A stretch of 64,000 bases of DNA. Origin: Desulfitobacterium dichloroeliminans LMG P-21439. GTDB taxonomy: Bacteria > Bacillota > Desulfitobacteriia > Desulfitobacteriales > Desulfitobacteriaceae. This document shows positions 9,206-37,123 of this stretch, one piece after another. Where the stretch lies: assembly GCF_000243135.2 (NCBI RefSeq), contig NC_019903.1:3014001-3078000 (forward strand), in the 5' to 3' direction. The first letter of the stretch is position 1. The number at the start of each line of letters is the position of its first letter. The translations under genes were made by a program, and so were the position numbers. Under the pieces are notes generated by a model that did not search any database, had not been told where the DNA came from, and saw only the letters and a program-made list of their open reading frames with translations.

Positions 9206-11108
9206 ATCGGGTAGGAGGCCACCCATTATTTGAGTGGCCGACCTCCCACAGCACCGTACGTACCGTTCGGTATACGGCGCTTCCAAAGTTTACGCGTTAC
9301 TACGCAGAATAACATTCACTAAAACTGAGATATCCAATCCGTTTGAAACGTTCGTTGGATAGGGCTTTTGTCAAGATAGGGCTATGGGCTGTTCGCCAAT
9401 AGCCTTTTCTTGTGTTTGCCCACATCCATGCTTGTTCCCTAGCAATTCCTGTTTTCTTTAGGTTTTCAAAACGTGTCCGGACTTTCTTCCATCGTTTCCA
9501 AGTAACCATCCTTATTCGACTTCTTAGCCACTCATCTACGTTCTTGAGCAGGGTCTTTGCATCCGCTAGTTTGAAGTAATTCGTCCATCCTCGAACCACT
9601 TGGTTGAGTTTTATTCGGCGTTCTTCGATTCCCATTCCGTTGCTACGCCCAGTCACTTCCCGGACTTTGTCCTTGAGTTTCTGAATGCTCTTGGGATGGA
9701 TTCTTAAACGTCCCTCTCCTCGATAGATGTAAAAGCTATATCCCAAATACTTTACATACCTTACATGTGCAACCTTCGTTTTCTCCCGATTCACCTTTAG
9801 CAATAATTTTCCTTCGATGAACGGAAGTATGTGGTCGAGCGTTCGCTGCGCCGCTTTCTTGCTTTTGCAGAAAATCATCATATCGTCTGCATAGCGTACA
9901 AATCGATGCCCACGCTTTTCCAGTTCGTGGTCGCACTCATTAAGCATTATGTTTCCAAGTAAGGGACTCAGGGGGCCGCCTTGTGGCACGCCTTCTGGAC
10001 TTTCCTCGAACAGCCCGTCAGCCATAACTCCTGCTCTTAGGAATTTATGGATCAGTGAGATGACTCGTCCATCTCTTATTGTCTCAGATAGCATTTGAAT
10101 CAATTTACTTTGGTTAACCGTGTCAAAATATTTCTCTAAATCCATGTCTACTACATACTTGTACCCTTCTGTAATATGGATCTGGCATTTCTGTAGCGCA
10201 TCATGGGCACTTCGGTGCGGTCGGAACCCAAAGCTGTTATCTGAGAATTGTTTTTCAAAGATTGGACTTAGGACTTGAGTTATCGCTTGTTGGATTAACC
10301 TGTCTACGACTGTTGGTATTCCCAGTTTTCTAGTCTTCCCGTTCTCTTTAGGTATCTCTACCCTCCGCACGGGTTTTGGATGGTATTTGCCATCCCAGAG
10401 GGATTGCAAGAGTTCGTTCTTGTGGTCTTTCAGGAAGGGTAGAAGTTCATCCACCTGCATACCATCGATTCCACCTGCACCTTTATTCCTCTTTACCTGT
10501 TTATAAGCTTGGTTAAGGTTTTCGGCACTAAGAATCTGCTCAAGCAAACCTTCCATCTGCTCGTTCGTGTTGGTGCTGTCGGTTTCAGTCATCTTAGCTG
10601 GCGCGCACACTTCCGCATACTCTCTCTGTTCCGCAGATACCCTTTGCAGATAGTCTTCCAATCGAAGTTGTCTGTGTTTTGAATTACCACTTTCAGTAAC
10701 TTTCATTGACCCGCACCTCCTTTGGTTCAGCCCTTTCGTCGGTGTCTAGACCACCTCTGTACTATGGCTTCTGCTGACTCCTCACGACAAATCTTGTTTC
10801 AACCGGGTTTCTTACTCTGTTTCCACCCGTCCGTGAGGCCTCCCACGGTAAGACGATTCACTTTCATTCCATGTACCCGCATCATTTACGCTGACGTGTC
10901 TGTGTAGCTTTTGGGCTTCAACTTGTTAAGCAGTCTTACCCCACGTTTCGCGCCTGATGATGTTTGTGTTCCTCGGGCCGGAACTTTGCTGCCGGCTTCC
11001 TTCAGATTCCACCTCGCGATGGACACCCTTGCCTTAGGCTAATGGTTGGTCGCTACATACCCCCATAACGGACTTTCACCGTCTAGTTAATCATCATGCA
11101 TGGCGCAC
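9206..11108 (-). mobile_element. Group IIC intron, complete
   Basis: Read on the minus strand, the element begins with the group II 5' consensus GTGCG at 11108, has a long structured domain I-III region (about 11108-10707, noncoding), the maturase ORF, and then domain V at 9250-9281, a 34-nt-class hairpin with 2-nt CG bulge and the catalytic triad written CGC, the form known from class IIC. Domain VI follows (GGTCGGCCACTC / TGGGTGGCCTCC arms) and the intron ends at CCGAT, 9206. Total about 1.9 kb. It sits 4-5 nt after a 15-bp hairpin downstream of selB, the target type class IIC introns use. Boundaries are inferred from consensus ends. Confidence 0.85.
9300..10706 (-). CDS. ltrA: Group II intron reverse transcriptase/maturase
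   Basis: 468 aa. Reverse transcriptase blocks in order: RNKGAGGIDGM (RT0-1), PKENGKTRKLGIPTVVDRLIQQ, SFGFRPHRSAHDAL, VVDMDLEKYFDTVN, GVPQGGPLSPLLGNIML, and the catalytic FVRYADD (YADD). The maturase X/thumb region follows (RRIKLNQVVRGWTNYFKLAD) and a short end GYWRTAHSPILTKAL. There is no HNH endonuclease domain, as usual for class IIC. It splices and mobilises the surrounding intron. Start ATG at 10706 preceded by AAAGGAGGTG. The frame is intact, so the intron may be active. Confidence 0.95.
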   Translation of the reverse strand: MKVTESGNSKHRQLRLEDYLQRVSAEQREYAEVCAPAKMTETDSTNTNEQMEGLLEQILSAENLNQAYKQVKRNKGAGGIDGMQVDELLPFLKDHKNELLQSLWDGKYHPKPVRRVEIPKENGKTRKLGIPTVVDRLIQQAITQVLSPIFEKQFSDNSFGFRPHRSAHDALQKCQIHITEGYKYVVDMDLEKYFDTVNQSKLIQMLSETIRDGRVISLIHKFLRAGVMADGLFEESPEGVPQGGPLSPLLGNIMLNECDHELEKRGHRFVRYADDMMIFCKSKKAAQRTLDHILPFIEGKLLLKVNREKTKVAHVRYVKYLGYSFYIYRGEGRLRIHPKSIQKLKDKVREVTGRSNGMGIEERRIKLNQVVRGWTNYFKLADAKTLLKNVDEWLRSRIRMVTWKRWKKVRTRFENLKKTGIAREQAWMWANTRKGYWRTAHSPILTKALSNERFKRIGYLSFSECYSA

Positions 11109-11239: not shown

Positions 11240-13144
11240 CTAGTAGTTAGGGCCCGGTATGCGAACATCTTCTTTTCTGAGAGTAATCTTTAGCTTGTCA
11301 AAATACTCCAGATAAGCAACAACGGTCTTTCTGCCGGTCTGAAGAGCATCTCGGACTTCCGCCACGCTAATGGTTCCTTGGGCATCCATTAAGGAGCGAA
11401 TGGTCTGCAAGACCTTTTCAAAAGCTTCTTTATGGACGAGGATTCCTTGACCCAGATCCACAAGTTGGCCCGATTTGAGAAAGAATTTGACAATCTCCTC
11501 GATGTCACCGGGTTTCATATTGATATCTTTGGCAACCTGCAGAGTACTCCCTGTATTCACACCATAAGTTAAGAACGCCTTCTCCATAAGAGCTATTTCC
11601 TTAGAAGCTAGTATTCTTTCTAAGGCAATACCGTTCGGTTCAGATAAGAAATTGCCATCTAATCTAAGCCGCTGATTAACGATAAAGTGATTGAGCAGAG
11701 CGGCAAAGTCTTTCGAGTCTATCACCTGAAAAATGCCGCTTTTCATTTCTTCCTTATCAATTTGATAACGATAAGGATATTTATTATACATTTTTCTAAA
11801 AGCAGCAATTGCTTTGGTATAATATTTTTCTAATTGAAGGTGACTTAGGTATTTATTCGTTTCCTTCAGTAAAATGAGCTTTCCTGATGTAACTTCTCTA
11901 TCTAGAGTTTCCTGGACTTGACTCCTATCTGTATTCAGAGCTTGCCCCAACTCATCTAGCCCGAGAGGTTTTTCTGAAGAATTTAATACCAAGGAGATCA
12001 ACTCTTCTAGGGTACCATTTTCGCCGATGTCCATAGCCTGCATGGTTTCCGGTGCAAATCGTTGCCTGTTTTTGGTCGTATGATACAGTATCCAGCCACC
12101 ACCAATAGTCACTTCCGGTGAATAGCTACGGATAATAAATCGGTCTTTACGCAGAATCACGACTGGTTCTTCAAAACGCAGCTGGACATATCCTTTACTT
12201 CCTTCAGTAATCTCATCAGTTCCTAAAAGTCTGACCCGAGCCAGAACCTCCTTCGTTCCGCTGTGCAGATGCACTCTTTGATTATGAATCAAGCTGCCTT
12301 TGCCTTTGACAGTGTAGACAAGGGCATCGGCAATGCGGATTGGATTCAGGGTCCCTTCGTGTGCCGCAGTATCTCCGCGTTTGATTTCTGATTTTTCGAT
12401 TCCTGTGAGATTTAAAGCGCAGCGGTCACCTGCGGTAGCTTCATCAACACCGGTATTATGCACTTGAATTCCCTTGACACGTGCTGTCAGCCCCGCAGGG
12501 TATATTTCTAAGGTATCTCCTTTGTTTACTTTGCCCCCTGTTATCGTTCCGGTGATGACGGTCCCGTGGCCGGTCATGGAAAACACTCTGTCAATGGGCA
12601 ACCGAAATATTTCTCGTCCCTCTCTGGCGTGCACCTTTAAGGCAAGTTGGTCTAAAACTTCTAACAGTTGAGGGATTCCTTCACCCGTTACAGAAGAGAC
12701 TGGGACGATAGGGCTTCCTCCCAGTGTCGTCCCCTGAACCGCATTCTTAATATCTTCAAAGACCATTTCCAGCCATTCAGCATCGACAAGATCGGTCTTC
12801 GTTAAAGCAATGACACCGGATTCGACATTGAGTAGATTTAGAATATCCAAGTGTTCCCTGGTTTGCGGCATAATTCCTTCATCAGCTGCAATGACCAACA
12901 TGACCAGGTCGATACCCGTAGCACCGGCCACCATGGTCTTGACAAATTTCTCATGTCCGGGAACATCGATGATGGACAGCATCTGGCCGGAAGGTAGCGT
13001 CAAGGCAGCAAAGCCCAGTTCAATGGTCATGCCGCGGCGTCTTTCTTCCTCAAGACGATCTGTGTCGACATCGGTTAATCTTTTTACTAGAGATGTTTTG
13101 CCGTGGTCAATATGGCCAGCTGTTCCTAAAACAATCTTTTTCAT
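11240..13144 (-). CDS. selB: Selenocysteine-specific elongation factor SelB
   Basis: 634 aa. N-terminal EF-Tu-like GTPase with GTAGHIDHGKTSL (P-loop), DVPGHEKF (G3) and TKTD (G4) in the first 150 residues, then beta-barrel domains, then a C-terminal third made of winged-helix repeats that bind SECIS hairpins in mRNA. It delivers Sec-tRNA-Sec to UGA codons. The gene begins 4 bp after selA ends and shares its transcript. The client is visible in the same locus: fdnG with an internal UGA at 19695-19697. ATG start preceded by GGGGTGA. Confidence 0.97.
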   Translation of the reverse strand: MKKIVLGTAGHIDHGKTSLVKRLTDVDTDRLEEERRRGMTIELGFAALTLPSGQMLSIIDVPGHEKFVKTMVAGATGIDLVMLVIAADEGIMPQTREHLDILNLLNVESGVIALTKTDLVDAEWLEMVFEDIKNAVQGTTLGGSPIVPVSSVTGEGIPQLLEVLDQLALKVHAREGREIFRLPIDRVFSMTGHGTVITGTITGGKVNKGDTLEIYPAGLTARVKGIQVHNTGVDEATAGDRCALNLTGIEKSEIKRGDTAAHEGTLNPIRIADALVYTVKGKGSLIHNQRVHLHSGTKEVLARVRLLGTDEITEGSKGYVQLRFEEPVVILRKDRFIIRSYSPEVTIGGGWILYHTTKNRQRFAPETMQAMDIGENGTLEELISLVLNSSEKPLGLDELGQALNTDRSQVQETLDREVTSGKLILLKETNKYLSHLQLEKYYTKAIAAFRKMYNKYPYRYQIDKEEMKSGIFQVIDSKDFAALLNHFIVNQRLRLDGNFLSEPNGIALERILASKEIALMEKAFLTYGVNTGSTLQVAKDINMKPGDIEEIVKFFLKSGQLVDLGQGILVHKEAFEKVLQTIRSLMDAQGTISVAEVRDALQTGRKTVVAYLEYFDKLKITLRKEDVRIPGPNY

Positions 13145-13148
13145 TCAT

Positions 13149-14576
13149 TCACCCCACGATGCCCTGTAAGGTCTGCGTAATCACCGGAAATTCGGTTGCT
13201 AATATCGTTCGAACATTCAACAGAACTTTGTCCTTATGGATTCTGCCAATAATTGGTGTGGTCGCCTTTCTGAGAAGGATCTGCAGCTCATTGGCAGACA
13301 AACCCTCTATGGTCAAAGATATGGCTTTACCCTTTAGCAGAACATCCGGCAAAGAGCCACCCCCTGCTTCATCTTCGACATCCACAATTTCCGTTTGGCA
13401 TCGATCACCTAGCACAGCAAGCAGTTGTCGATCGAGTTCCTGTGCTCTCAGCAACAAATCTTCTTGACTTAAATCCAACATGTTTAAGGCCGGAATTTGC
13501 TCAACAGCCTTTTCTGGGTTCAAATAGATAGTCAATACCGCAGTCAAAGCCGCAATTGAACTTTTGTCACAGCGGACAATGCGGGCCAGAGGGTTCTTTT
13601 TGATTTTATCTATCAAGGCCTTCTTGCCGACGATTACCCCAACCTGTGGGCCTCCTAACAATTTATCTCCGCTAAAAGTGACGAGATCCACCCCGCTAGC
13701 GATAACTTCCTGAACTGTAGGCTCATAGGGCAATCCAATTTGGGTCAAATCATAGAGGCAACCGCTACCCAAATCCTCCATGACCAGTACATCCTTTTCC
13801 CTGCCCAGTCCCACTAAATCCTGACGTGAGACTTCTGCAGTAAAGCCGGAGATTTTGTAGTTGCTAGTGTGCACTTTCAACAAAACTGCCGTATTTTCGG
13901 AAAGGGCTTGGGCGTAATCCTTGTCTTTCGTTTTATTCGTGGTCCCGACTTCGATCATAGTACAGCCGCTGGAGGAAATAATATCCGGTATGCGAAAGCT
14001 TCCCCCAATTTCGACCAGCTGTCCTCTGGAAACGATGACTTCTCCCTGGTTGGCCAAAGTATTCAGACTTAAGAACACTGCTGCTGCGTTATTGTTGACG
14101 ACCATCGCACTTTCGGCACCGGTCAAACGGGTAATCAACGGCTCAATATGAGCGTGACGAGAACCGCGGTGGCCGCTTTCGAGGTCGAACTCCAGGTTAC
14201 TGTAGCCTTCATTGACTTTATGTATCTGAACGATTGCCTCATAGGGCAGAGGTGCTCTTCCCAAATTGGTATGAAGAACAATGCCTGTTGCATTGATTAC
14301 TTTCTTTAGTCCAGTATTCTTTTCTTCACTAATTTTACTTTTAATCTTCTCAATTAAGTAGGTAGTAATCTTCTGACGATCGAGGAGGGACATTGATTCT
14401 GTAAATAATGAATCGGTGTGCAACTGTTGTCTATATTCACCTATGACCTGCGTTAGTATATCCATAAGCAGAGGCTTTCCAATCGTGTGCAGCAAAGCCA
14501 CAACTTCAGCGTGCTCGAGAATTTCATTCATCGGAGTGATGGTTCGCAGCGCCTTGTGTAGTTGATCCTTCTCCAA
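13149..14576 (-). CDS. selA: L-seryl-tRNA(Sec) selenium transferase SelA
   Basis: 475 aa PLP enzyme that converts Ser-tRNA-Sec to Sec-tRNA-Sec with selenophosphate. Family signatures: VINATGIVLHTNLGRAPLP, NLEFDLESGHRGSR, NNNAAAVFL, and the PLP-lysine loop FSGDKLLGGPQVG. The start is a TTG at 14576, chosen because GGGAGG lies 7 nt upstream. It sits between selC and selB in the same direction, so tRNA, charging enzyme and elongation factor form one unit. No selD (selenophosphate synthetase) is in the window. Confidence 0.97.
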   Translation of the reverse strand: MEKDQLHKALRTITPMNEILEHAEVVALLHTIGKPLLMDILTQVIGEYRQQLHTDSLFTESMSLLDRQKITTYLIEKIKSKISEEKNTGLKKVINATGIVLHTNLGRAPLPYEAIVQIHKVNEGYSNLEFDLESGHRGSRHAHIEPLITRLTGAESAMVVNNNAAAVFLSLNTLANQGEVIVSRGQLVEIGGSFRIPDIISSSGCTMIEVGTTNKTKDKDYAQALSENTAVLLKVHTSNYKISGFTAEVSRQDLVGLGREKDVLVMEDLGSGCLYDLTQIGLPYEPTVQEVIASGVDLVTFSGDKLLGGPQVGVIVGKKALIDKIKKNPLARIVRCDKSSIAALTAVLTIYLNPEKAVEQIPALNMLDLSQEDLLLRAQELDRQLLAVLGDRCQTEIVDVEDEAGGGSLPDVLLKGKAISLTIEGLSANELQILLRKATTPIIGRIHKDKVLLNVRTILATEFPVITQTLQGIVG

Positions 14577-14660
14577 AACAATGCCTCCCTATGTAAAGGG
14601 ACATGAATTCCGCAGCCTCAGCCGCTTGCTCATGCCCATCGCAATCATTACCATGTTTGT

Positions 14661-14757
14661 TGGCGGGAATGTGTAGGAGTCGAACCTACCTCGGCCGGAT
14701 CACCCACCCGACAACGGATTTGAAGTCCGCGGAACCCACCGGGATCCATCCATCCCC
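14661..14757 (-). tRNA. selC: Selenocysteine tRNA, anticodon UCA
   Basis: 97 nt including an encoded CCA. Anticodon arm CGGA-CTTCAAA-TCCG (anticodon TCA reading UGA), a long variable arm typical of tRNA-Sec, T arm GTAGG-TTCGACT-CCTAC, and an extended acceptor stem of about eight pairs starting GGGGATGG (the eighth pair is G.A). It lies directly upstream of selA in the same orientation. Confidence 0.93.
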
Positions 14758-14764
14758 AATAATA

Positions 14765-14792
14765 GTTATACCATATCTAATATAATTTTCAA
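14765..14792 (-). promoter_or_regulatory. selC: Likely selC-selA-selB promoter
   Basis: On the minus strand TTGAAA (14787-14792), a 16-nt spacer and TATAAC (14765-14770). The expected transcription start, about 7 nt on, falls at the first base of the tRNA (14757), which supports the assignment. Confidence 0.6.
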
Positions 14793-14826
14793 ATAATTAT
14801 ATTATTAGCTCTACTAATTGTTTTTA

Positions 14827-15555
14827 TTAGTTCCACCCTTTTTGTCCGGCTAGCCATTGTTCTGCTGCATAATTGAGAGGCATCGTGCGGATGTCTTCCC
14901 AAACCAAATCTTGGGTGTTCAATTCTCGCAAATCTACCTGTTTAAAATATGAACCACAATCAGAGCAAACACCAATCTCGATGCCAGGGTATTTTTCAGA
15001 TTTAAGATAGGTCTGCTTTTTGGCATCCTCACTGCCACAGCTTGCGCAACCGGAAGCACCGACAGGTCTTTGATAGCTGCAGACCAGACATTTCTGGTAG
15101 CGTTTGCCTAAGGGTCGTGCCAAAACGGTCATAAAATGCTTTTCTCCGCAGACTGGGCAAGTTCCAAACGACTGGTTTTCCTCGCTGGGGGTATTAATGC
15201 TCGTTTGACAAATCAGCTGGGCAATACCCGCGAGAGCTAACTGCAGCCGAGCGGCATTAGCATCCTCCAAAGTCTCCCCATCCTTGAACTTGTGTAGGAG
15301 TATGCGCAAAACAGCAGCTTCCTGGGGCTCACCTGCAACTTGATTGAGCCTTTGCCACAACTCAACGATGCTATCTTCGGGTAAACTATCCAAAGTAAAA
15401 TATGGCGAGGTCTGGGCAAGCTGGACTCCTGCCACCACCTCTGGAGCCTGACTTTCTTGCCAAAGCTGTATTTCTGCTTGTAATTTTAGATAATTCTCCC
15501 TAACTGCTGATAAATGCAGTTCATTCAGCTCATTATTCAAAATGTTCGTCTGCAC
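14827..15555 (-). CDS. fdhE: Formate dehydrogenase accessory protein FdhE
   Basis: 242 aa. N-terminal helical half, then a C-terminal half with four CxxC knuckles: CPVCGEKH, CLVCSYQRP, CASCGSED, CSDCGSY, the rubredoxin-like iron/zinc sites of FdhE. The family is needed to make active respiratory formate dehydrogenase and binds the catalytic subunit. GTG start at 15555 preceded by AAGGAGGGTG. It is the last gene of the fdnG-fdnH-fdnI-fdhE run, separated from fdnI by a 165-bp gap holding a long hairpin. Confidence 0.92.
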   Translation of the reverse strand: MQTNILNNELNELHLSAVRENYLKLQAEIQLWQESQAPEVVAGVQLAQTSPYFTLDSLPEDSIVELWQRLNQVAGEPQEAAVLRILLHKFKDGETLEDANAARLQLALAGIAQLICQTSINTPSEENQSFGTCPVCGEKHFMTVLARPLGKRYQKCLVCSYQRPVGASGCASCGSEDAKKQTYLKSEKYPGIEIGVCSDCGSYFKQVDLRELNTQDLVWEDIRTMPLNYAAEQWLAGQKGWN

Positions 15556-15649
15556 AATTCACCCTCCTTACAGAAAACCTGACTTCGCAGAGATGCGACG
15601 TCAATAGTTCTCAGATGCGTCATAAAATCACTCAATAATGCGTTAAAGG

Positions 15650-15702
15650 AAGTCTGCTGCAAACCCTGAGCATGGAATTTCTTCAGGGCCTGCAACAGAC
15701 TT
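15650..15702 (-). other. Long imperfect hairpin between fdnI and fdhE
   Basis: Two 20-nt arms (15650-15669 and 15683-15702) pair at 17 of 20 positions around a 13-nt loop. No U-tract follows on the minus strand, so it does not look like a simple terminator; it may stabilise the upstream mRNA or lower fdhE expression. Confidence 0.6.
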
Positions 15703-15720
15703 AATAATACCACAGAACAA

Positions 15721-16398
15721 TTAGGATTTCTCTTGCTTTTGAATCTCCTCATACCAAGCCCCATGATGGGTCTTAGCAAAGGATTCGGGAACATGACCCT
15801 TTACCATCCCCTGCAAGGCGACCCGTGATTCTGGGTGCAATAGCGAAAGGTACATATGCCCAATCAAGGCCGCTGTCATAAAGATCATGGACAAATCATG
15901 AATGGGGTAGGCAAATCGCACCAGTCCGATGGGGAAATATTGGGGGAACCACATAATAACCCCACTTAGAGTTATAAAGACTGTACCGAAGATGGTGATT
16001 AGAGAGTTGATTTTTTCCCCTCCGTTATACTTTGCTTGAGGAGGGTAATTGCCATGGCCACCAAAAAACTCAACAGCAAAAGCCTTCACATGCATCGCAT
16101 CGGCTTTCGTCCAGACAAATACAGAACGTAACCAGGACCAGTGATGCTTTCGTTCACCGATGAAGAACAGCAGTCCTACAATGACCACAAAGACTATCGC
16201 AAAAACACGGTGGATGATTCGTGCATTGTCAATGCCACCCACGATCGCCATGACCGGTCGGAAAGTCACTGACATAACAGCTAGACCTGTAAAGAGGAGA
16301 ATCAAGTAGGAAAAAGCATGAACCCAGTGGCTCAACCGTTCTCCTCCGGTGAATCTAAGAACTTTTCCTTCAGGGACTTGCTTTAAATTCTCTGCCAT
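15721..16398 (-). CDS. fdnI: Formate dehydrogenase cytochrome b subunit
   Basis: 225 aa. Four membrane helices with the cytochrome b556 pattern: RLSHWVHAFSYLILLFTGL (heme His in helix 1), IHRVFAIVFVVIVGLLFF, ITIFGTVFITLSGVIMWF, and IHDLSMIFMTAALIGHMYLSLLHPE with further histidines. It passes electrons from the iron-sulfur subunit to the quinone pool. It overlaps fdnH by one base (stop/start), showing coupling. Length and helix count match the FdnI/FdoI family. Confidence 0.93.
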   Translation of the reverse strand: MAENLKQVPEGKVLRFTGGERLSHWVHAFSYLILLFTGLAVMSVTFRPVMAIVGGIDNARIIHRVFAIVFVVIVGLLFFIGERKHHWSWLRSVFVWTKADAMHVKAFAVEFFGGHGNYPPQAKYNGGEKINSLITIFGTVFITLSGVIMWFPQYFPIGLVRFAYPIHDLSMIFMTAALIGHMYLSLLHPESRVALQGMVKGHVPESFAKTHHGAWYEEIQKQEKS

Positions 16399-17213
16399 TA
16401 TACTGCCCCTCCTTTCCCTTGGTGGTCATCATCAACAAAATGTTCCTTGCTGTAATTGCCTTTAGCCACATTGACTAAAGTTCCAACAAGAACTGCTGCA
16501 GCCGCACCACCGCAAGCAATCGCACCCAGCGGGCGAGCGATATCTTTCCATAGGGTCAGGGTAAAGGGTACCGTAGGGTTGGCCGGTAAACCATAAGATT
16601 CCGGAGTATCGAGCAGAATATACTTATAGAGTGTTCCGCCGACAACATCTTTGCCGTAGAGATTCGCCTTGGGATAGTTTGTTTTGAGCTCAGCCAGACG
16701 CTGTTCAGCTTTTGGCATCATCTCAGAGTCATCACCAACGGTAAGGGTTCCTGGCTGACAGATGGCAACGCAAGCTGGTTCCAAACCATTTTCCACCCGT
16801 TCCCAACAACCGGTGCACTTCGTCGCTTTTTTAGTACTCTGATCAACCCTGGGAATGTCAAAGGGGCAGTTCGTTACACAATAGCCACAGCCAATGCATT
16901 TGTCTTTGTCGATGATCGTAAATCCCGTCTCGGTTTTGGAGATGGCTTCGGAAGTGCAAGCCTTTAGACAAGCAGCATCAGCACAATGAAAGCATTGGGC
17001 TTTCCGCATCATCCAAAGCATTTTGTTATTTTCATACTTTTCATCAAAAGCAACATAGGTGTAAGTGTTGGGATCCAAGTCCTTCGTAGACTGGTAACTT
17101 TTAACCAAAGTCGTTTTAACCGCCGGTAACTCATTCCATTCTTTGCAAGCTGCAGAACAGGCTTTACAGCCGGTACATTTGGAGGTGTCGACTAAAATCA
17201 TTTTTTTACTCAT
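16398..17213 (-). CDS. fdnH: Formate dehydrogenase iron-sulfur subunit
   Basis: 271 aa. Four 4Fe-4S motifs: CTGCKACSAACKEW, CFHCADAACLKAC, CIGCGYCVTNCPF and CTGCWERVENGLEPACVAIC. A single C-terminal membrane helix (about residues 226-250, GAIACGGAAAAVLVGTLVNVA) anchors it, as in FdnH. It wires the catalytic subunit to the cytochrome b. It begins 3 bp after the fdnG stop with a GGAGGGCG ribosome site. Confidence 0.95.
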   Translation of the reverse strand: MSKKMILVDTSKCTGCKACSAACKEWNELPAVKTTLVKSYQSTKDLDPNTYTYVAFDEKYENNKMLWMMRKAQCFHCADAACLKACTSEAISKTETGFTIIDKDKCIGCGYCVTNCPFDIPRVDQSTKKATKCTGCWERVENGLEPACVAICQPGTLTVGDDSEMMPKAEQRLAELKTNYPKANLYGKDVVGGTLYKYILLDTPESYGLPANPTVPFTLTLWKDIARPLGAIACGGAAAAVLVGTLVNVAKGNYSKEHFVDDDHQGKGGAV

Positions 17214-17216
17214 CGC

Positions 17217-20200
17217 CTACGCCCTCCTTATGTTGACTAGACAGCACTTATATTCTGGTGTGCCTGCCGTCGGGTCAATAGCACTAATTGTGAGGTTGTT
17301 AGTGCTTGGTCCGGGACTGAGAGACGCGAAGCCCCAGCTCCAGGGCATACCAATGGTCTCGGAATCCTGACCGTTGATTTTTAAGGTCTGAATTCTGTCC
17401 GTTACCAAGGCAACCACCTGGACTTTACCCCGAGCAGAAGATACTTCTACCATGTCGCCCTCTTTAACACCAATTTTCCGAGCCAAATTTTTGCTGATCT
17501 CAGCAAAGGGCTGCGGCATCAACTCGTTGAGCATAGGGATATTTCTAGTGATACCTCCGGCGCAGAAATGTTCGACCATACCATAAGTTGTTAATACGTA
17601 AGGAAAATCTTCCTTTGTCCCATGGTTCGTGATCCCGGGTAGATAGTTAGGGATTGAAACCGTGGGATTGGAATTCACATTCTTGTGTAGCGCATTTTCC
17701 GTCGGGCTTTCGACGGGCTCATAAAATTCAGGCAGCGGACCATCATTGCATTGACCGGCAATCCGTACCCCAATGGGTGGCAGTCCGTCAGCAGGGGGAG
17801 TTGCAGGAATTCCACTAAAATACTTAGCGGCGAAGAGACGACCTACTCCTTCTGGATTCATACGGAAAGAAAGTTTTCCCTGCGGTGTATCCGGTCCTTT
17901 GGTCTTATCAGGAACATCGGCACCGTCGTTTCCTTCCCAAGAATTCTTGGCAGCATCCCACCAAATCAGCTTGAGCTTGTCATCAAGAGGCTTACCGTTC
18001 ATATCACAGGAGGCACGATTATAGAGGATGCGGATATTACCAGGCCAAGAGAAGCTCCAATTCCGGTAAAGACCGAGCCCCGAAGGATCCTCGTTATTAC
18101 GTCGAGCAGTGAGATTGCCATTACCTGTAGCGCCGGCATAAATCCAACAGCCTGATGAGGCTGTTCCGATAGGGGCTTTAAGGTAGTCCCCTATCGTCGG
18201 CAACAATTTACCGGTTGTTTCATCATAACCACTGATTTCCTGGAGAACTTTCAGCGGGTCCGGATGTTGCCCATAATCCCAGCGAGCATTAAGAATCGGG
18301 GCATCTTTGGGATCCGTGCTACCGGCGTAGAGATCTTTGAGCTTGCGATAGATGAGATCCAGCATATCCAAATCCGGCTTGGATTCGCCCAGAGGCTTCA
18401 ACGCAGCATCTTTCCACTGAATCCAACGACCTGAGTTAGATAAGGTGCCCCCTTTTTCGTAAACAAAAGCAGCAGGGAGCATTATAACTTCCGTGTTAAT
18501 CTTTGACGGATCGACGAGGGGCTCGCCAGTGGTCGGATCTTTTTCTCGCCAGAATTGTGCGGTTTCGATCTCGTAAAGATCGGCCACGACCAGCATATCT
18601 AGCTTAGCCAGGCCTTCACGCACGATTTGTCGGTTGGGGATAGATACCATGGAGTTCGATCCAAAGTTGAGTAAAATCTTAAATTGATCCCCATTCATAT
18701 ATTCCCAGAGCTTTAACATGCTGTAGTTTTTGGTTGAGTTGTATCTAGGCAGGTAATCGAAGCAATAATCATTATCCTTAGTTGCTTTATCACCAAACCA
18801 AGCCTTCAATTGAGCAACAATATGTTTCTCAAAGAAAGAACCACTGCGGACCAAATAACTACGAAGATCTTTATCCGTATGAATCGGAGCCGGCAGATAG
18901 CCTGGTAAATTAGCAAATAGATTGGCCATATCGGTAGAGCCCTGAACATTGGGTTCACCACGAAGAGCCTGGATCCCGCTACCGGCTTTGCCTACATTGC
19001 CCAGAAGCAGCTGGATAATCGCATAGCATCGTATGCCCTGAACGCCGGTAGTATGTTGGGTCATGCCCAGCGCATAGAGGATACTACCCGGTCTGGTGTT
19101 ACAGAATGTATCGGCTATTTCCTTAATTTTTTCAGCTGGAATACCACTTATATCCGCAGCAGTTTCTAGGGTATAGCGGGAGAAATGCTCCTTCATTTTG
19201 CTAAAGACAGTATCCGGATCCTCTAAGCTTTCAGCTATAGCCGGCTTGTTCTCATCATCGAGTTGGTAAGCCCAGCTATCAAATTTATATTTTTTGGTCT
19301 CCGCATCGAAGCCAGAAAATAGACCCTCCTCAAACTTGAAGTCCTTGCTAATTTTATATTGTGCATTCGTGAAGTTAAGGATATAGTCCTCATCGTAAAG
19401 CTTGTTATCGATGATGTATTTAATGATTGCGCCTAAATAAGCAATATCAGCACCAGGTCGAACCTGAGCGAAGATATCGGCTTGTGAAGCGGTACGAGTA
19501 AACCGTGGATCGACCACAATTACCTTAGCACCGTTTTCTTTTGCCTTGTTGATCCAGCGCATAGCTATGGGATGGTTTTCAGCGCAATTACTACCCGCAA
19601 TCAGGAAGCATTTTGTGTTTTGCATATCCGTCCATGAGTTGGTCATGGCTCCGCGACCAAATGAAGGTGACAAACTTGCCACCGTGGGAGCGTGTCATAT
19701 CCGGGCCTGATGTTCGTTATAGGGTGTTCCGATCAACTCGGATAGTTTTTTAATGAGGTAGGATTCTTCGTTATCGACTTCTGCTGAACCTAGGACAGCA
19801 ATGCCGTCAGCGCGATTCACTTCATAAGTTTTACCACCAATTTCTTCAGTAGCCACCCAGGTGGTGTCACGAACTTCCTTGATTTTTGAGGCAATCTTAT
19901 TGATGGCATCATCCCAGGAAATCTCTTGCCAATCACTCGCTCCGGGTGCTCTGTATCTCGGCTTAAGGACACGGTTGCTGTCTTCGGCAATATGGCTTAG
20001 ACTAGCACCTTTAGGACAAAGGGCACCGGAGTTTACCGGATTATCCGGATCTCCATCCAAATAAACAATCTTCTCATCTTTGATGTGAAGCAGTAATCCG
20101 CATCCGCCGGAACAGAAATGACAGATGCTAGGAATCTTTGTGGTTCCTTCAATTCTGAGCGCAAAGCCTTGAGCTTGGGCTATTTGTGGATCAAATCCAA

Positions 20201-20267
20201 GACCAGAAGCCAAAGCAATTAAAGATGCCCCAGAAATTTTAAGAAACCCACGACGAGTTACTTCCAT
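17217..20267 (-). CDS. fdnG: Formate dehydrogenase catalytic subunit, selenoprotein
   Basis: 1016 residues when the in-frame TGA at 19695-19697 is read as selenocysteine (residue 191). The N-terminus has a twin-arginine signal (TRRGFLKISG, residues 4-13), so the enzyme is exported folded. A 4Fe-4S site uses Cys49, Cys52, Cys56 and Cys84, followed by molybdopterin-binding domains and a C-terminal molydopterin-dinucleotide domain. The context of the Sec, NEHQARI-Sec-HAPTVASLSPSFGRGAMTN, matches the FDH-N active site. It oxidises formate to CO2 outside the membrane and feeds electrons to fdnH-fdnI. A plain ORF search splits it into two pieces (19695-20267 and 17217-19682), but the frame is continuous. 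GGGGGAGAG precedes the ATG. Confidence 0.97.
19666..19683 (-). promoter_or_regulatory. fdnG: SECIS hairpin of fdnG
   Basis: Minus strand GGTGGCAAGTTTGTCACC folds with six to eight pairs and a small apical loop containing GU. It starts 11 nt after the UGA at 19695-19697, the same spacing as in E. coli fdhF/fdnG, and is the expected SelB-binding element. Confidence 0.85.
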
Positions 20268-30364: not shown

Positions 30365-30382
30365 AATGCTCTTCCTCCCTCC

Positions 30383-31999
30383 TTAACGATCACAGCAGCT
30401 GTAACACAGTTCAAAACTCTTATTAATCAGCGGAAAATCTGGAACAATATTCCCAAGTACCGCTAAGGGCACAGCGGGCCAATTCGCATAGGAAGCCGAG
30501 CGAATTCGACAACGATAAATCTTGCCTTCACGGTCTAACATCAGCCATATGACATCCGTTCCACGCGGTGATTCAGCACATCCCCAAGCAAACTCATAAG
30601 GTCGAACTTCCTCTAGATTTTTTACGGGAGTGGCTTGATGAGCGTTCGTTACTACTGTCTGATCATTGAGCAGTTGATTAAGGAGGGCATAACTCTGCCT
30701 CGTTTCGCGAACTCGAACCATAAGGCGGGCCCACACGTCTCCCTCCAGCTCCACTTGGGGCTCTACATTAAGCTCAGGATAGAGAAGATAGCCATGACAG
30801 GAACGCCAGTCCTGCGCTACTCCGGAAGCACGAACTGCGGGACCTGTGACCCCCAGATCTAAGGCACTTTGCTTATGAAGGACCCCTGTGGTTATAGCCC
30901 GCTGACGGAATCCATCGTGCTCCAGAATCAGAGGAATCCACTCTTCAAAATCCTTTTCAAGCTCAGCCAGCCTTGCCAGCAAATGAGCTATTCTTTCCTG
31001 CGCGGGACGCTTGGCTTTTCCGACCGTCACCGTTCCACGCAGAAAACGGTGTCCGAAAAGTTCCTGATTCAGACGTTGGAGCTGTTCCTTATGCTGTAAA
31101 CCATTGCTATTACCGAGGGCGAAGCCCACGCCGGCGCAAAGGTTGCCGATATCTCCCACATGGTTATAAAGCCTTTCTAGCTCTGCCAGTACCGTACGCC
31201 AGCCCAAGACTTCGCGAGAAACCTGTAGACCACCTAGCTTTTCCACAGCCTGACAATAAGCTAAGGCATGACTGACCGTGCACACCCCACAGACCCGCTC
31301 CACAATCTTTAAGCCTTCTTCGATACTCTTTCCTTCCAGAAGTCTTTCCACCCCTTTGTGGGTATAGAAAAGCTGAGCATCAAGGTGAAGAATCGTCTCC
31401 CCGACGGTTTGAAAACGAAAATGACCCGGTTCAATAATACCTGCGTGAATAGGACCCACCGGTATTTCAAAAGTCCCTTCGCCTATGGCTGCCGTGAAAG
31501 AAAGAGGCTGGGAAACAAATGCTTCGGCTTCTCTCTCTCCCGTAGTCCTTGGCTTAGATTTTCGCAACGGATGAAAATCCGCGGGCCAACCCGGATGCAA
31601 GACCAAGGAGCGCGTATCAGGATGCCCCTCAGGGGTTAGGCCCATAAGGTCCTTGAGCTCTCGCTCTGCCCAATTTAAGGCCGGGCAAAGAATCGTTAAA
31701 GAAGGGTAACTGTCTTTAATGCCGCGAGCTACCAAGGTGAGGGTGAAATCCCCCGGAAAATGGAAGAGCAGGTAGAGCGCAAAGTCATGCCCTAACTCAC
31801 GTTCATCATTTCCTACATGAGTCAGAAGCATGGGACGGGTCGTTGCTTCTACCCAGATATGCTGAATGACCTCGGGCAGGCACTGAGAATCCAATAAAAC
31901 CAGTCCCTCGTTTTTTGTCCAGGTGGCCACCGCATAGCCTTCAGGGTTTTCCTTCACCCGTTCCTCAAAATACACTTGTAAGTTTAATAATTTCTCCAT
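30383..31999 (-). CDS. hyfG: Group 4 [NiFe]-hydrogenase large subunit, NuoC-NuoD fusion
   Basis: About 538 aa. N-terminal 30-kDa-subunit (NuoC-like) domain to about residue 150, with LNWAERELKDLMGLTPEGHPD, then the large-subunit domain. Both pairs of Ni-Fe cysteines are present: RVCGVCTVSHA and the terminal CYSC, so this is a hydrogenase, not a complex-I-like paralogue. The protein ends at CYSCCDR-stop, exactly where the HycI protease cuts E. coli HycE, so there is no C-terminal extension to remove. ATG 31999 is preferred over GTG 32008 because GGGAGGAGG is about 8 nt upstream. Overlaps hyfF by 35 bp. Confidence 0.93.
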   Translation of the reverse strand: MEKLLNLQVYFEERVKENPEGYAVATWTKNEGLVLLDSQCLPEVIQHIWVEATTRPMLLTHVGNDERELGHDFALYLLFHFPGDFTLTLVARGIKDSYPSLTILCPALNWAERELKDLMGLTPEGHPDTRSLVLHPGWPADFHPLRKSKPRTTGEREAEAFVSQPLSFTAAIGEGTFEIPVGPIHAGIIEPGHFRFQTVGETILHLDAQLFYTHKGVERLLEGKSIEEGLKIVERVCGVCTVSHALAYCQAVEKLGGLQVSREVLGWRTVLAELERLYNHVGDIGNLCAGVGFALGNSNGLQHKEQLQRLNQELFGHRFLRGTVTVGKAKRPAQERIAHLLARLAELEKDFEEWIPLILEHDGFRQRAITTGVLHKQSALDLGVTGPAVRASGVAQDWRSCHGYLLYPELNVEPQVELEGDVWARLMVRVRETRQSYALLNQLLNDQTVVTNAHQATPVKNLEEVRPYEFAWGCAESPRGTDVIWLMLDREGKIYRCRIRSASYANWPAVPLAVLGNIVPDFPLINKSFELCYSCCDR

Positions 32000-33464
32000 A
32001 CTCTCCACCTCCTCCCAGAATCAATTCAACAACCTGATTCAAGGCCTGATTAAGGGGTTCTGGCACAACCACACCCAAAATGAGAACAAGCGCTAGAGGT
32101 AGGGCTAGCCAAAGCATAGCCGATCCCTCTCCCCTTTCTTCAAGGTGGCGTTCATTAGGCTTGCCGAAAAGCATCCCCAAAAAGTGATATAGAAAGCCGG
32201 CAAAGATCACGGACAAGAACAAAGCAGTTAAAAATCCCAAGAAAGGATGGCCCGCCTGGAAAAGGCCAGCCATAATATTAATCTCTGAGCGAAAGGTTCC
32301 AAAAGGCGGGGTACCCGTAATGGCAAGTAAGCCCATGAGTAGCATCCCTCCTGTATAAGGCCATAAACTCAGGATACCTCTCATCTTGGGGATCTGCCGG
32401 GTACCCATCATCTGTACCACACGCCCCACAGCGACAAAAAGATTGGCTTTAGTCAAGGCATGCAGAATCAGGTGAAAACAAGCCCCCCAAACCGCAAGAG
32501 GTGTCCCTATCCCAAAACCTAAAGCGATAATCCCCATATGCTCAACGCTGGAATAAGCTAAGAGTCGCTTAATATCCTTCTGCAAAAGAATAAAGGCCAC
32601 CATAGCGCCTAAAGAAAGAAGACCAAAAATAATAAGAAGGTTTCCTGAAAAATCCGGGCCAAGACTGGTTTGGCGAACGAGAATATGCCAACGCAGGATA
32701 GCATATAAGGCACAGTTTAAAAGCACCCCAGATAATAAGGCGCTGACGGGGGAAGGAGCTTGACTATGGGCATCCGGTAACCAAGGATGCATAGGAACAA
32801 AGCCCACTTTGGCCCCATAGCCGATAAAGGCAAAGACAAAGCCCAGCTTTACCAAAGCTGGATCCAATTGGTTGGCCAGGTTCACAAGTAGTCGCCAATC
32901 CAAGGCTGCTAAGCTGTATCCATTAACCCTGCCTGAGGCAGCATAAAGAATCATGGTTCCTAACAAAGCGAAACTAATTCCTACCGTGCACAGGACGATA
33001 TATTTCCAGGCGGCTTCAACAGCCGGTTTCTCTCGATAAAAACCCACCAAAAGGGCAGTAGCTAAGGTGGTACCTTCGATTCCGACCCAAAGCAAGCCAA
33101 GATTCGGGGTGCTCACCACCCAAAGCATGGTACCAATAAACATCCAGATCCAAAAATAGTACCAAGGCAACCGGCTTTGCGGGACTTTATCTGCTTCCAC
33201 CTCGTGTTCCATATAGGAAAAGGAGTATAAAACCACGTAAGCAGCGATTACCGCAATGACAGTGAGAAGCAAGGCGCTTAGAGCATCCCAAGTAAAGAAT
33301 CCTCCCCAGATGCTTTGCGGTCCTTGAGTATACACTCGCCAGATCATATCTCCGGCCAAACCCAATAAAGCCAAAACCGCTAGGCTATTGATGGTCCTTA
33401 AAACTTGATTCCGGGAAGAGATGAGCATACAGAGAGCTGCGAGAAAAGCCACGACTATAAACAT
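31965..33464 (-). CDS. hyfF: Hydrogenase membrane subunit, antiporter-like (HyfF)
   Basis: 499 aa, about 14 membrane helices. Proton_antipo_M/NuoL-N-like core with GYGAKVGFVPMHPWLPDAHSQAPSPVSALLSG (lysine and histidine of the half channel) and QKDIKRLLAYSSVEHMG. HyfF/HycC-type subunits are thought to pump protons or sodium during electron flow to the hydrogenase. In the operon between hyfE and hyfG, overlapping the latter. Confidence 0.9.
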   Translation of the reverse strand: MFIVVAFLAALCMLISSRNQVLRTINSLAVLALLGLAGDMIWRVYTQGPQSIWGGFFTWDALSALLLTVIAVIAAYVVLYSFSYMEHEVEADKVPQSRLPWYYFWIWMFIGTMLWVVSTPNLGLLWVGIEGTTLATALLVGFYREKPAVEAAWKYIVLCTVGISFALLGTMILYAASGRVNGYSLAALDWRLLVNLANQLDPALVKLGFVFAFIGYGAKVGFVPMHPWLPDAHSQAPSPVSALLSGVLLNCALYAILRWHILVRQTSLGPDFSGNLLIIFGLLSLGAMVAFILLQKDIKRLLAYSSVEHMGIIALGFGIGTPLAVWGACFHLILHALTKANLFVAVGRVVQMMGTRQIPKMRGILSLWPYTGGMLLMGLLAITGTPPFGTFRSEINIMAGLFQAGHPFLGFLTALFLSVIFAGFLYHFLGMLFGKPNERHLEERGEGSAMLWLALPLALVLILGVVVPEPLNQALNQVVELILGGGGEYGEIIKLTSVF

Positions 33465-33473
33465 CTTAGTTTC

Positions 33474-34130
33474 CTAACCTTTCAAAGAATTGAGATGCTC
33501 TACATTCAATGAGTCAAACTTCTGAATCATTCGCTGAGCGAGAACCCCTAAGATTAACACCCCGATCAATATATCAAAGATGACCCCAACTTCGACTAGA
33601 AGAGGCATACCATTCGTTAGTAGGAAACCCGCCAAGAAAATGCCATTATCAATAATTAAAATTCCCACCACTTGAATTAAAGCTACTTTGCGAATTACCA
33701 TGAGCAATAACCCGTAAAAGAGTAAAGCGAACGCGATCGCTAAGCCGTTACGTAGAGAAGGCTCCACTAAGGATAAGAGAGGTTGGGTGATAGCATAAGC
33801 AAGAATTGTCAGAGCCGCAGCCACTACCAAAGAAGAGTTGCGTCGCAGAAACACTTCCCCTACCCATTGGGTATGAGATAATCTCGCCGTCCGCCGGAGA
33901 ACCCAAGGAATCACTCCACCCTTGACCACTAAGGTGAGGAGGGCAATTGCCATCATCTCCAACTCTTTTTCTTTAATTCCCTCCAGTAAGATGAGCAGAG
34001 AAAGGAATACAGCTTGCCAAGTCCAAGCCTGCAAGGCCTTCTTCAATTTTGAGCAGCCAACAATATACAAACCTGTAGCCAAGAGAATAAAGAGTACTAG
34101 TTGTTGGAGATTTTCCATGGTTCCTTCCAT
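33474..34130 (-). CDS. hyfE: Hydrogenase membrane subunit HyfE
   Basis: 218 aa with six to seven membrane helices; the C-terminal part resembles NuoK/MrpC (FLLTNGMPLLVEVGVIFDILIGVLILG). HyfE is the membrane component that distinguishes Hyf from Hyc hydrogenases. It starts 1 bp after hyfC ends and lies 9 bp from hyfF. ATG behind AAGGAGGG. Confidence 0.85.
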   Translation of the reverse strand: MEGTMENLQQLVLFILLATGLYIVGCSKLKKALQAWTWQAVFLSLLILLEGIKEKELEMMAIALLTLVVKGGVIPWVLRRTARLSHTQWVGEVFLRRNSSLVVAAALTILAYAITQPLLSLVEPSLRNGLAIAFALLFYGLLLMVIRKVALIQVVGILIIDNGIFLAGFLLTNGMPLLVEVGVIFDILIGVLILGVLAQRMIQKFDSLNVEHLNSLKG

Positions 34131-34131
34131 C

Positions 34132-35118
34132 CTAGATCCCTCCTTTCGTAATCCAAAGTGTCAATAGAGCCAAGATGGCCGCAGCTAAACCAACCGCCAA
34201 AAAATTAGGAATCCGGAATAGGCGCACCTTGACATGGATACTTTCGATCGTGGCAAAAAGAGCTCCCAGTAGAGTCACCATTCCTAACTGCAAGACACTT
34301 TGAGTCATGAGAGTCCCGAACTGAATTCCGCCACCTTGGGTATAAAGTAGATTCATATTCACGGGCACAATCAATAAGGCGAGAAGTTGAAGGAGAATCA
34401 GCTGCTTGAGTTGTTCCGCCCAATGCAAAAAGCCCAACGAACGTCCCGAATAATCGAGAAGCATTCCTTCATGAATCATGGTCAACTCCAGATGAGTATC
34501 GGGGTTATCCACCGGGATCCTTCCCATCTCAGCAATAGAAATCAGCACAAGAGCAAGCAAGGCCAGTATCCGTGGCGTCTCGAATATGGATATGCTTTGG
34601 AGTTCAGCTATCATTCCTGTAAGAGAGGTGGTCCCCGTTATCAGGGCCAGTACAACCAAACTTAAAATGAAGGCCGGCTCAACGAGAGCCGCTACAAACA
34701 CTTCCCTGCTACTACCCATGCCTCCGAAAGTCCCCCCTGCGTCCAAACCCGCGAGCGCAAGGAAAAACCGAGCCAGTGCAAAGCTGGCTACCAGCCAGAA
34801 CAAAGACCCCATCCCCTGAATTGGTGCACTTCCCCAGGGACCGGGAATGACCAGACTAGCCAGTAGTGTGCTACCCAAAGCAATAGAAGGGGTAATCAAT
34901 AAGATCCATGAGGAATGCTCAGAAATAACCTCTTCCTTACCCATATACTTACGCAGATCACGATAAGGTTGTAAAAGGGAAGGCCCTTTACGCATCTGCC
35001 AAAAAGCCTTTACCTTTTTTATCCACCCTTGAAGTAATGGCGCGGCTAGTAAAAAGAGTAATAAATGAAAGCAGGAAAAGACGATTATCTTCCAATCCAG
35101 TTGCCAAACCATAGACAT
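34132..35118 (-). CDS. hyfC: Hydrogenase membrane subunit HyfC (NuoH-like)
   Basis: 328 aa, about eight helices, HycD/HyfC/NuoH family. Conserved loop RKGPSLLQPYRDLRKYMGKEEV at the N-terminal side and IAEMGRIPVDNPDTHLELTMIHEGMLLDYSG, the acidic loop that couples the peripheral arm to ion movement. ATG behind GGGAGG, 14 bp after hyfB. Confidence 0.92.
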   Translation of the reverse strand: MSMVWQLDWKIIVFSCFHLLLFLLAAPLLQGWIKKVKAFWQMRKGPSLLQPYRDLRKYMGKEEVISEHSSWILLITPSIALGSTLLASLVIPGPWGSAPIQGMGSLFWLVASFALARFFLALAGLDAGGTFGGMGSSREVFVAALVEPAFILSLVVLALITGTTSLTGMIAELQSISIFETPRILALLALVLISIAEMGRIPVDNPDTHLELTMIHEGMLLDYSGRSLGFLHWAEQLKQLILLQLLALLIVPVNMNLLYTQGGGIQFGTLMTQSVLQLGMVTLLGALFATIESIHVKVRLFRIPNFLAVGLAAAILALLTLWITKGGI

Positions 35119-35131
35119 CTCTTTTTCCTCC

Positions 35132-37042
35132 CTACATTGTCCAAATTAAGACGACAACCAAAGTTACGAGAGTATAAGCCAGATAGATATGGATACTCCC
35201 CGTTTGTAAGATGCGAATTCGATCTGCACACCACAAAAGCAGCTTCATGGTCGGCCGATAAATAACATCCTCCACCATCTCACGAATACGACTATGATAT
35301 TGCAAAGACCGCAATATATAACGATTTCCTCCATACTCCTTATCAATCTTGGGGTGGAAGGCTAGAATCCTTTTAAATACGATCCGCAAAGGCATGGTAA
35401 TACCTAAGCTAGTGTATTGCATACGAGAAGTCAGGGGAACGCCACAATTCCAAGTCCCTGAAGTTCTTCTCTGTTTTCCTTTAGATAAAAGAAACAGTGT
35501 TCCAGTAAATAGCAGCATCAGCAGCGCATAAGGGGTAATCAGATGATATAAGTCAGCAAAGATGGGCAGGGCCACCGAGTTCGTGGTAGGTAGGGCAGGC
35601 AAACTCAAGACCCCAATAGGTGCGTTAAAAATTGCCAAGAGACCTTGGGGCCAAAGGACGGGAAGAAAAGTCAGACACAGGGCAATTCCCATAGCTGTGG
35701 TCTGTGGCCAGGCTAGCTCTTGGGCAACTTCTGCTTGGGGAGAACGAGCTTGCCCGAGAAAAGCCCCGGCAAACCACTTTACCATAGTTGCCAAAGCTAG
35801 GGCCGAGACAAACGCTATTATAGCAATGATTAAGGGTAGCACAAGCTTAAGCATCCCCCCACCGACTTGCACGGAAGTCTTCCACAAAGAGTGGAATAAC
35901 AACCATTCTCCCCAAAACCCACCCAAAGGCGGCAACGCCGAAAGCCCCATGGCTCCTCCAAGAGCCCACAAGCCAGTTCTAGGCATTTTTTTGAGCAGGC
36001 CACCCAGTTGATCCAAGCGCCGTGTATGGGTTGCTTGAATGATATTCCCGGCTGCCATAAAGAGTGTCGATTTAAAGAGCAGATGATGGAGTCCATGCCA
36101 GAAAAAAGCAGCCAGCGCGAGGACGACAATCTCGGAGTAACCCAAAGTCTGGGCAATCATAGCCGTCCCCAAAGCCGTGACCAGAATCCCAATATTCTCA
36201 ACCGTAGAATAGGCTAGCAAACGTTTGACGTCCTGTGCAATCGAGGCGTAGAGTATGCCGACGAAGGCTGAAAGCACCCCCAGAACAAGCAGAACAACTC
36301 CCCACCATATCTCCATAGGGGTGAGGGTTAACCAGACCAGTCTCATCATCATATAAAGAGCAATTTTCACCATCACTCCCGACATCAGCGCCGAGACAGG
36401 AGAAGGTGCCACTGGATGAGCATAGGGAAGCCAAATATGAAAAGGCACGAGCCCTGCCTTAGTCCCAAAGCCTATAAGCAAGAAAACAAATAGGAAGCTC
36501 CTCTCTCCTTGGCTTAAAACAGGAGCGTAAGCAGCCCAATCTGTATAAGCAAAGCTTCCTGTCTTGCTATATAAATAAAGAATCGCAGCTGTCAAAAAAA
36601 CCGTACCCACATGGGTCATCACGAAATAAATAAAAGCTGCTGTGCGATTTGATGCTTCCTCATGTTCAAAGATTACAAGAAAAAAGGAGAAAAGGGACAT
36701 GAGCTCCCAGAGAAAAAGAAAATAGAAACCCTGGTCGACTATCAAGACACCCGTCATGCTACCGAGAAATCCCAGCCAGGCCAGAGAAAAAGAGACTAAC
36801 GATTTCTTCCCCTCATATTCTTTCATATAGCTCATCCCATAGAGTGAAGCAATTCCTTGCCCGAGAAAAAGCAAAAATAGAAAGAAGGCCGTTAACCCAT
36901 CAAAAGTAAGTCCGGCTATCTGCCACTGGCCTTCATCTCCCCCCGGGAAATTCCAACCAAGGAAAACTATCCCAATGATTGCCGCTACCATTGTTAATCC
37001 CATCGTCCCGACCCGAAGCCCTCGCTCCATTCCCATGATCAT
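35132..37042 (-). CDS. hyfB: Hydrogenase membrane subunit HyfB (NuoL-like)
   Basis: About 636 aa, some 16 helices. Antiporter core with GFGTKAGLVPFHIWLPYAHPVAPSPVSALMSG and QDVKRLLAYSTVENIGI, plus a long C-terminal extension. First recognised gene of the hyf operon. I take the ATG at 37042 because GGAGGAG lies 5 nt upstream; an open frame reaches 37063. No ferredoxin-like HyfA or HyfH gene accompanies it. Confidence 0.9.
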   Translation of the reverse strand: MIMGMERGLRVGTMGLTMVAAIIGIVFLGWNFPGGDEGQWQIAGLTFDGLTAFFLFLLFLGQGIASLYGMSYMKEYEGKKSLVSFSLAWLGFLGSMTGVLIVDQGFYFLFLWELMSLFSFFLVIFEHEEASNRTAAFIYFVMTHVGTVFLTAAILYLYSKTGSFAYTDWAAYAPVLSQGERSFLFVFLLIGFGTKAGLVPFHIWLPYAHPVAPSPVSALMSGVMVKIALYMMMRLVWLTLTPMEIWWGVVLLVLGVLSAFVGILYASIAQDVKRLLAYSTVENIGILVTALGTAMIAQTLGYSEIVVLALAAFFWHGLHHLLFKSTLFMAAGNIIQATHTRRLDQLGGLLKKMPRTGLWALGGAMGLSALPPLGGFWGEWLLFHSLWKTSVQVGGGMLKLVLPLIIAIIAFVSALALATMVKWFAGAFLGQARSPQAEVAQELAWPQTTAMGIALCLTFLPVLWPQGLLAIFNAPIGVLSLPALPTTNSVALPIFADLYHLITPYALLMLLFTGTLFLLSKGKQRRTSGTWNCGVPLTSRMQYTSLGITMPLRIVFKRILAFHPKIDKEYGGNRYILRSLQYHSRIREMVEDVIYRPTMKLLLWCADRIRILQTGSIHIYLAYTLVTLVVVLIWTM

Positions 37043-37123
37043 TTTCTCTCCTCCATCATACAATGCTTGTACTATAACACACGCAACTTCCGCTGCTATT
37101 TAAGTTGTCTGTTGTCTATTGTT

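Follow-up and report, generated by a model that had tools for sequence, protein, structure and literature searches.

Can a [NiFe]-hydrogenase large subunit whose gene stops at the mature end of the protein be matured without a protease, and what does such an end say about the enzyme? This question is raised by a hyfG/hycE-like gene of Desulfitobacterium dichloroeliminans LMG P-21439, which lies in the 64,000-nucleotide stretch analysed here (the window; positions 3,014,001 to 3,078,000 of contig NC_019903.1) and which an earlier note had described as lacking the C-terminal tail. Starting at the GTG at 32008, the reading frame encodes 541 amino acids (538 if the ATG at 31999 is taken as the start), and it closes with NKSFELCYSCCDR followed by TAA (last letters SFELCYSCCDR-TAA). 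The order of its Pfam domains, Complex1_30kDa, NiFeSe_Hases and Complex1_49kDa, fits the fusion expected of a HycE-type protein. In a phmmer alignment with Escherichia coli HycE (7z0s), the best solved relative, residue 541 stands opposite the last R of CYSCTDR, the end of the mature protein. The predicted structure gives the same result: in the AlphaFold2 model (mean predicted local distance difference test score 91, weaker in the last residues), residues 4-541 match residues 5-537 of 7z0s_E with a Z of 46.9 over 520 residues at 32% identity. Residues 182-537 of HycE have been described as the part homologous to soluble large subunits (PMC9474812). Beyond the mature end, HycE and HyfG each continue for 32 residues, and the E. 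coli and Firmicute group 4a enzymes together for 32-33, whereas the window large subunit continues for none. It is confirmed that the window large subunit is encoded without a C-terminal extension and that it ends where mature HycE ends, as had been claimed for the CYSCCDR-stop.

The stop leaves no room for a tail, because GGAGGGAGG, likely the ribosome-binding site of the small-subunit gene, abuts it and hyfI starts 18 nucleotides on. A sequencing or assembly error at the stop, or a recent truncation, could in principle mimic such an end. However, among close orthologues of 61-100% identity, counting the window gene itself, all 18 with a complete sequence end in ...DR at the same residue with nothing after it, which refutes this explanation; the likely ribosome-binding site directly after the stop also speaks against it, we found nothing in its support, and its probability is practically nil. 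The earlier note would have given way to orthologues that all carry tails, and none of the 18 carries one. At a threshold of E 1e-20, 41 of 45 genomes of the family to which the window belongs gave matches, complex I subunits being counted among them; the copies in G005 and G030 are fragmented or cut and are not among the 18 whose ends were read.

More distant relatives came from 398 genomes of the phylum and from 41 loci that a single scan of public genome contigs had yielded. Matches of the family and phylum scans were fetched in part, as the automatically assigned loci plus 40 hand-chosen places, and end states were counted over 133 sequences, all distinct, complete and no shorter than 300 amino acids; those cut by a contig end had been dropped beforehand. 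All 110 distinct complete members of the 4f/Ehr clade are tail-less; 50 of them keep all four cysteines, and in the other 60 the cysteines are altered. Outside this clade, 15 of 22 sequences are tailed and seven, Ech and similar types, are not; in Ech-type sequences the CxxC..R motif is likewise the end (as in ...CISCTER). The one further sequence is NuoD of complex I, which has the same end point as the tail-less clade. In a tree of 78 rows and 335 columns, built without the N-terminal cysteine motif and with each row cut off before the C-terminal motif, all 60 tail-less rows of 4f/Ehr fall into a single clade (100/100), whose sister is the tail-bearing group 4a (fork 100/98). The tail state requires three changes over the 78 rows, and change counts cannot separate gain from loss. 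The absence of the tail really marks the whole clade of HydDB group 4f and Ehr; it is inherited and is not an event in the window gene. The tail-less end contrasts with the tailed HycE and HyfG, but it is not peculiar to this gene, as Ech and the whole clade likewise lack the tail.

Within this clade, the four-cysteine state has changed at least six times. The first cysteine of each pair is the terminal nickel ligand in [NiFe] sites, and it is this residue that is lost in the altered form SGxC...SxxC, represented by seven distinct sequences. A tail-less paralogue of this form, with serine in first place and the second cysteine kept, occurs in the window's own family (L041, L042 and L110-L114). 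A grouping of the 31 altered-cysteine rows into one clade was borderline rejected by the approximately unbiased test (p 0.043), the grouping having been named post hoc from a tree in which long branches are present. A link between tail loss and cysteine loss was not supported either (P ~0.53): all changes of the four-cysteine state sit off the tail-bearing branches, which is the chance expectation because those branches hold only 8.8% of the branch length. As the clade includes tail-less proteins without nickel ligands, the absence of a tail says little on nickel insertion here. Thus, of the protease-free [NiFe] enzyme that had been proposed, the missing tail and the lack of a protease gene nearby stand, but a working enzyme had been presumed, and relatives devoid of nickel ligands share the same end.

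What the window protein itself does has to be judged from its active site. The four Ni/Fe cysteines are C240, C243, C535 and C538; the metal motifs RxCGxCxxxH and CxxCxxR are both intact (RVCGVCTVSH and CYSCCDR), and the hydrogenase residues E193, R238, H247, R402, E479 and R482 are kept. We consider it probable that the gene product serves as the large, catalytic subunit of a group 4 [NiFe] hydrogenase, a membrane-bound complex of six subunits (hyfBCEFGI), and that it is made at mature length as a trait inherited with the clade. Judged from sequence, the complex is likely a working [NiFe] hydrogenase, and its large subunit likely matures without a protease. HypCDEF would insert Fe(CN)2CO and HypAB nickel into a subunit that is already tail-free, the C-terminal CYSC would then fold in without a proteolytic trigger, and the large subunit would join HyfI. 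Electrons from a soluble donor would have the one proximal [4Fe-4S] cluster as their entry point and reduce protons, and this reduction would drive ion movement through HyfB and HyfF.

The rest of the genome (one contig of 3,624,449 bases) shows that tails and proteases are not foreign to this organism. Its only HycI/HyaD-family gene (PF01750), at C1:1897626, is separated from the window by over 1.1 Mb, so that the earlier statement of no protease gene nearby proves correct. This gene adjoins a large subunit of group-1 (uptake) type, and the three intact group-1-type large subunits of the genome end in DPCxACAxH plus 15, 12 and 15 residues; tail, protease and tail-less subunit are therefore found together in a single cell. 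The genome also has HypC, HypD and HypF. In addition, three copies of a repeat of about 3.2 kb, more than 99.9% identical (L010, L011 and L012, at C1 ~3.48, 0.615 and 0.934 Mb), combine a transposase-like reading frame with the small subunit and a truncated large subunit of a hydrogenase, and are apparently a mobile broken hydrogenase.

That the mature end is encoded while maturation is gated in another way, through the action of the single HycI-family protease at some other point or through a Hyp protein that keeps hold of the N-terminus, is very unlikely. The genome does have one HycI-family gene, and in other large subunits the N-terminus has been reported to take part in maturation (PMC12134894). 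However, nothing is left to cut past the mature end, and the HycI family was not found in G374, a genome in which HypC, HypD and HypF are present and in which the only two large subunits found, of Ech type (...CISCTER) and of 4f type (...CYSCFDR), are both tail-less; G374 matches the prediction of protease-free maturation. Across the 398 genomes, the HycI family is found in 148 and HypC in 164. HypC occurs without the HycI family in 28, and 23 of these have a group-4-like match at E 1e-40, many of the matches being of short Ech size; where a group-4-like large subunit was read to its end (4 of the 23 genomes: G108, G151, G336 and G374), it is tail-less in every case. The converse, a HycI-family gene without HypC, was seen in 12 genomes. 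G151 was rejected as a clean case of Hyp proteins without a protease. Its second large subunit, a HoxH-like protein (L172, C1 ~915.5 kb), carries a tail although no HycI-family match was found in the genome; here the protease was missed or is of a different kind.

Several observations weigh against a working, protease-free hydrogenase. The site is not wholly canonical, since the C-terminal motif has ELC where DPC is canonical and since R218K, R266E, S282N, F300N, G331K and M516A depart from residues invariant in 16 comparison hydrogenases. The tailed HoxH-like gene of G151 implies that a protease may escape the family search. The cysteines have been altered repeatedly within the clade, as described above. 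Finally, a close four-cysteine orthologue is kept in G006, a complete one-contig genome without HypC, HypD or HypF. This orthologue is intact and 63-66% identical, has EHLCGVC where the window type has ERVCGVC, and compared with the window gene shows open frames with nonsynonymous and synonymous differences (pN and pS) of 0.22 and 0.76; because synonymous sites are saturated, pN/pS is silent on selection after the loss of Hyp proteins in G006.

These observations bear on a further explanation, namely that the window protein is no longer a hydrogenase but an Ehr-like, complex-I-like redox pump, whose cysteines would be relics or bind another metal and which would hold no NiFe(CN)2CO. We regard it as unlikely, though it deserves to be taken seriously. 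Apart from the repeated cysteine changes in the clade in which the protein is nested, its C-terminal block PDFPLINKSF recurs with small changes in relatives without cysteines, and group 4f candidates of Clostridium acetogens were discarded after checks (PMC9431212). Moreover, among 26 sampled genomes that yielded a group 4f gene with four cysteines, 3 (G006, with loci L017 and L155; G368, with L099 and L156; G432, with L096 and L157) have no HypC, HypD or HycI family and no HypF above the cut-off, and the copies in G368 and G432 have IANTW after CGACS, the usual histidine being gone. In G026, an assembly 79% complete, HypD was not found and HypF is present. The four-cysteine genes in G006, G368 and G432 would be either relics or parts of complexes independent of NiFe(CN)2CO, and some four-cysteine group 4f complexes may thus work without that site. 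Against this explanation, the window protein retains both metal motifs, RxCGxCxxxH and CxxC, along with neighbouring residues, and HypC is present in its genome and in 22 others of the 26 four-cysteine genomes (the HycI family in 21 of the 26). The Hyp argument is weakened by the fact that most HypC-positive four-cysteine genomes hold other [NiFe] hydrogenases able to explain the Hyp genes. The reading as a group 4 [NiFe] hydrogenase made at mature length remains the one that we prefer.

A broader idea is that loss of the tail removes the check by which assembly is coupled to nickel insertion, that the 4f/Ehr clade is where hydrogenases could assemble empty and drift towards a complex-I-like pump, and that the window gene is a living member of this transition. 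We hold this idea to be doubtful. On this idea, some members would still be [NiFe] enzymes, while others have four cysteines in genomes without Hyp proteins (G006, G368 and G432), others have SGxC...SxxC and many have none of the cysteines. The point worth pursuing is that nickel sites within a single tail-less clade range from intact to dismantled, and that the Hyp machinery is sometimes missing. Being tail-less with or without nickel ligands, the clade offers a natural series in which the tail can be tested as a quality gate, and it bears on how complex I could have arisen from hydrogenases.

The large-subunit gene belongs to an operon of six genes, recognized by profile matches in the order hyfB-hyfC-hyfE-hyfF-hyfG-hyfI, in which antiporter-like and NuoH-like genes supply the membrane subunits of a group 4 enzyme; coordinates are listed below. 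Promoter-like matches in a scan of the sequence were no more numerous than in shuffles. The small subunit matches PF01058 (NuoB-like) and has CNGCD, GDCA and GCPP with the proximal [4Fe-4S] cysteines. It is without the N-terminal ferredoxin domain, usually of 8-9 cysteines, that the small subunit of most four-cysteine relatives outside the window type has. The 18 window-type small subunits are of 154-180 amino acids, with at most one cysteine ahead of the proximal-cluster motif, and at their N-terminus a stretch such as MWNLLRRSLKRGRL looks like the beginning of the ferredoxin-fused form, which suggests that the ferredoxin part was lost internally. With this part gone, the electron donor would have to reach the proximal cluster directly or via an unlinked protein. 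The operon is followed by genes that we take to be yqfC, yqfD, a phoH-like gene and others; the same order is found in G003 and G004, and G006 has about 2 kb between hyfI and yqfC.

Elsewhere in the window, a selenocysteine cluster (11240-20267; gene names by inspection) holds a formate dehydrogenase with an in-frame TGA, FeS and cytochrome-like subunits, and FdhE-, SelA- and SelB-like genes. This formate dehydrogenase was not adopted as a partner of the hyf operon, given its RRGFLK twin-arginine-like leader and its own FeS and cytochrome-b-like subunits.

Table. Features of the window, in positions of the 64,000-nucleotide stretch.
Feature	Position	Strand	Basis or remark
hyfB/hycC-like antiporter-type membrane subunit	35132..37063	minus	profile matches
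hyfC/hycD-like (NuoH-type) membrane subunit	34132..35118	minus	profile match
hyfE-like membrane subunit	33474..34130	minus	NF008556, under its curated cut-off
hyfF-like antiporter-type membrane subunit	31965..33464	minus	profile matches
hyfG/hycE-like [NiFe]-hydrogenase large subunit, NuoC+NuoD-type fusion, 541 amino acids	30383..32008	minus	domains, alignment, predicted structure
C-terminal motif FELCYSCCDR + TAA stop	30383..30415	minus	last residue opposite residue 537, the mature HycE end
18-nucleotide gap with likely ribosome-binding site of small-subunit gene	30365..30382	minus	direct reading
hyfI/hycG-like small subunit, 163 amino acids	29873..30364	minus	profile match and comparison; proximal-cluster cysteines kept
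Selenocysteine formate dehydrogenase	15721-20267		direct reading; twin-arginine-like leader at start
tRNA-Sec	14661-14757		in selenocysteine cluster
Group II intron	9206-11023	minus	reverse-transcriptase-like reading frame 9300-10706
T-box leader	63704-63900		upstream of leucyl-tRNA-synthetase-like gene

Tail-less [NiFe] large subunits are already known, and the phenomenon is not new, because groups 2b, 2d, 4c, 4e and 4g have been described as naturally free of the extension (Hartmann et al. 2020, PMC7294309); a 2025 review gives 2b, 2d, 4c and 4e (PMC12134894), and sensory and Ech enzymes are named elsewhere (PMC6769069). Group 4f does not appear in the lists excerpted from these three sources, and no statement that it has no tail was found in the portions of the literature searched. 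The window gene adds another branch: the subunits of groups 2b, 2d, 4c (CooH), 4e (Ech) and 4g are likewise encoded at mature length, but they belong to different clades. Engineered removal of the tail has had differing effects: it left hydrogenase 2 (Hyd-2) of E. coli assembled but cofactor-free, whereas the membrane-bound hydrogenase (MBH) of R. eutropha was active, HoxG without its tail still giving an active enzyme (PMC7294309).

Among individual systems, the closest in description is that of Desulfitobacterium hafniense, another species, for which such an operon, Dhaf_4277-4288, is described (PMC3306737) and a multi-subunit hydrogenase, ACL22288-93, is placed in group 4f (PMC9888536). Dhaf_4277-4288 of strain DCB-2 has neighbours similar to those downstream of the window operon, as compared by description only, and from these descriptions it appears to be the ACL22288-93 operon and orthologous to the window operon. 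The group 4f label used here is accordingly one transferred from D. hafniense rather than a HydDB classifier assignment. Another published group 4f case is Desor_1267 of Desulfosporosinus orientis, which was attributed to formate hydrogenlyase (PMC7248197). The window operon did not qualify as a group 4a formate hydrogenlyase: it shares with E. coli HycE and HyfG the fold, the NuoC+NuoD-type fusion, the four cysteines and the mature end point, but it has no tail, the HycI-type protease is away from the operon, and its six genes include none of the HycB/HyfA and HycF/HyfH electron subunits that the E. coli operons add, nor the HycI of the Hyc operon. Ehr, which is described as being without the nickel-iron cysteines (PMC6349859) and which HydDB leaves out as not metabolising H2 (PMC5037454), shares the clade, the tail-less end and a similar gene order with the window operon; identity with Ehr was rejected, as the window large subunit keeps all four cysteines.
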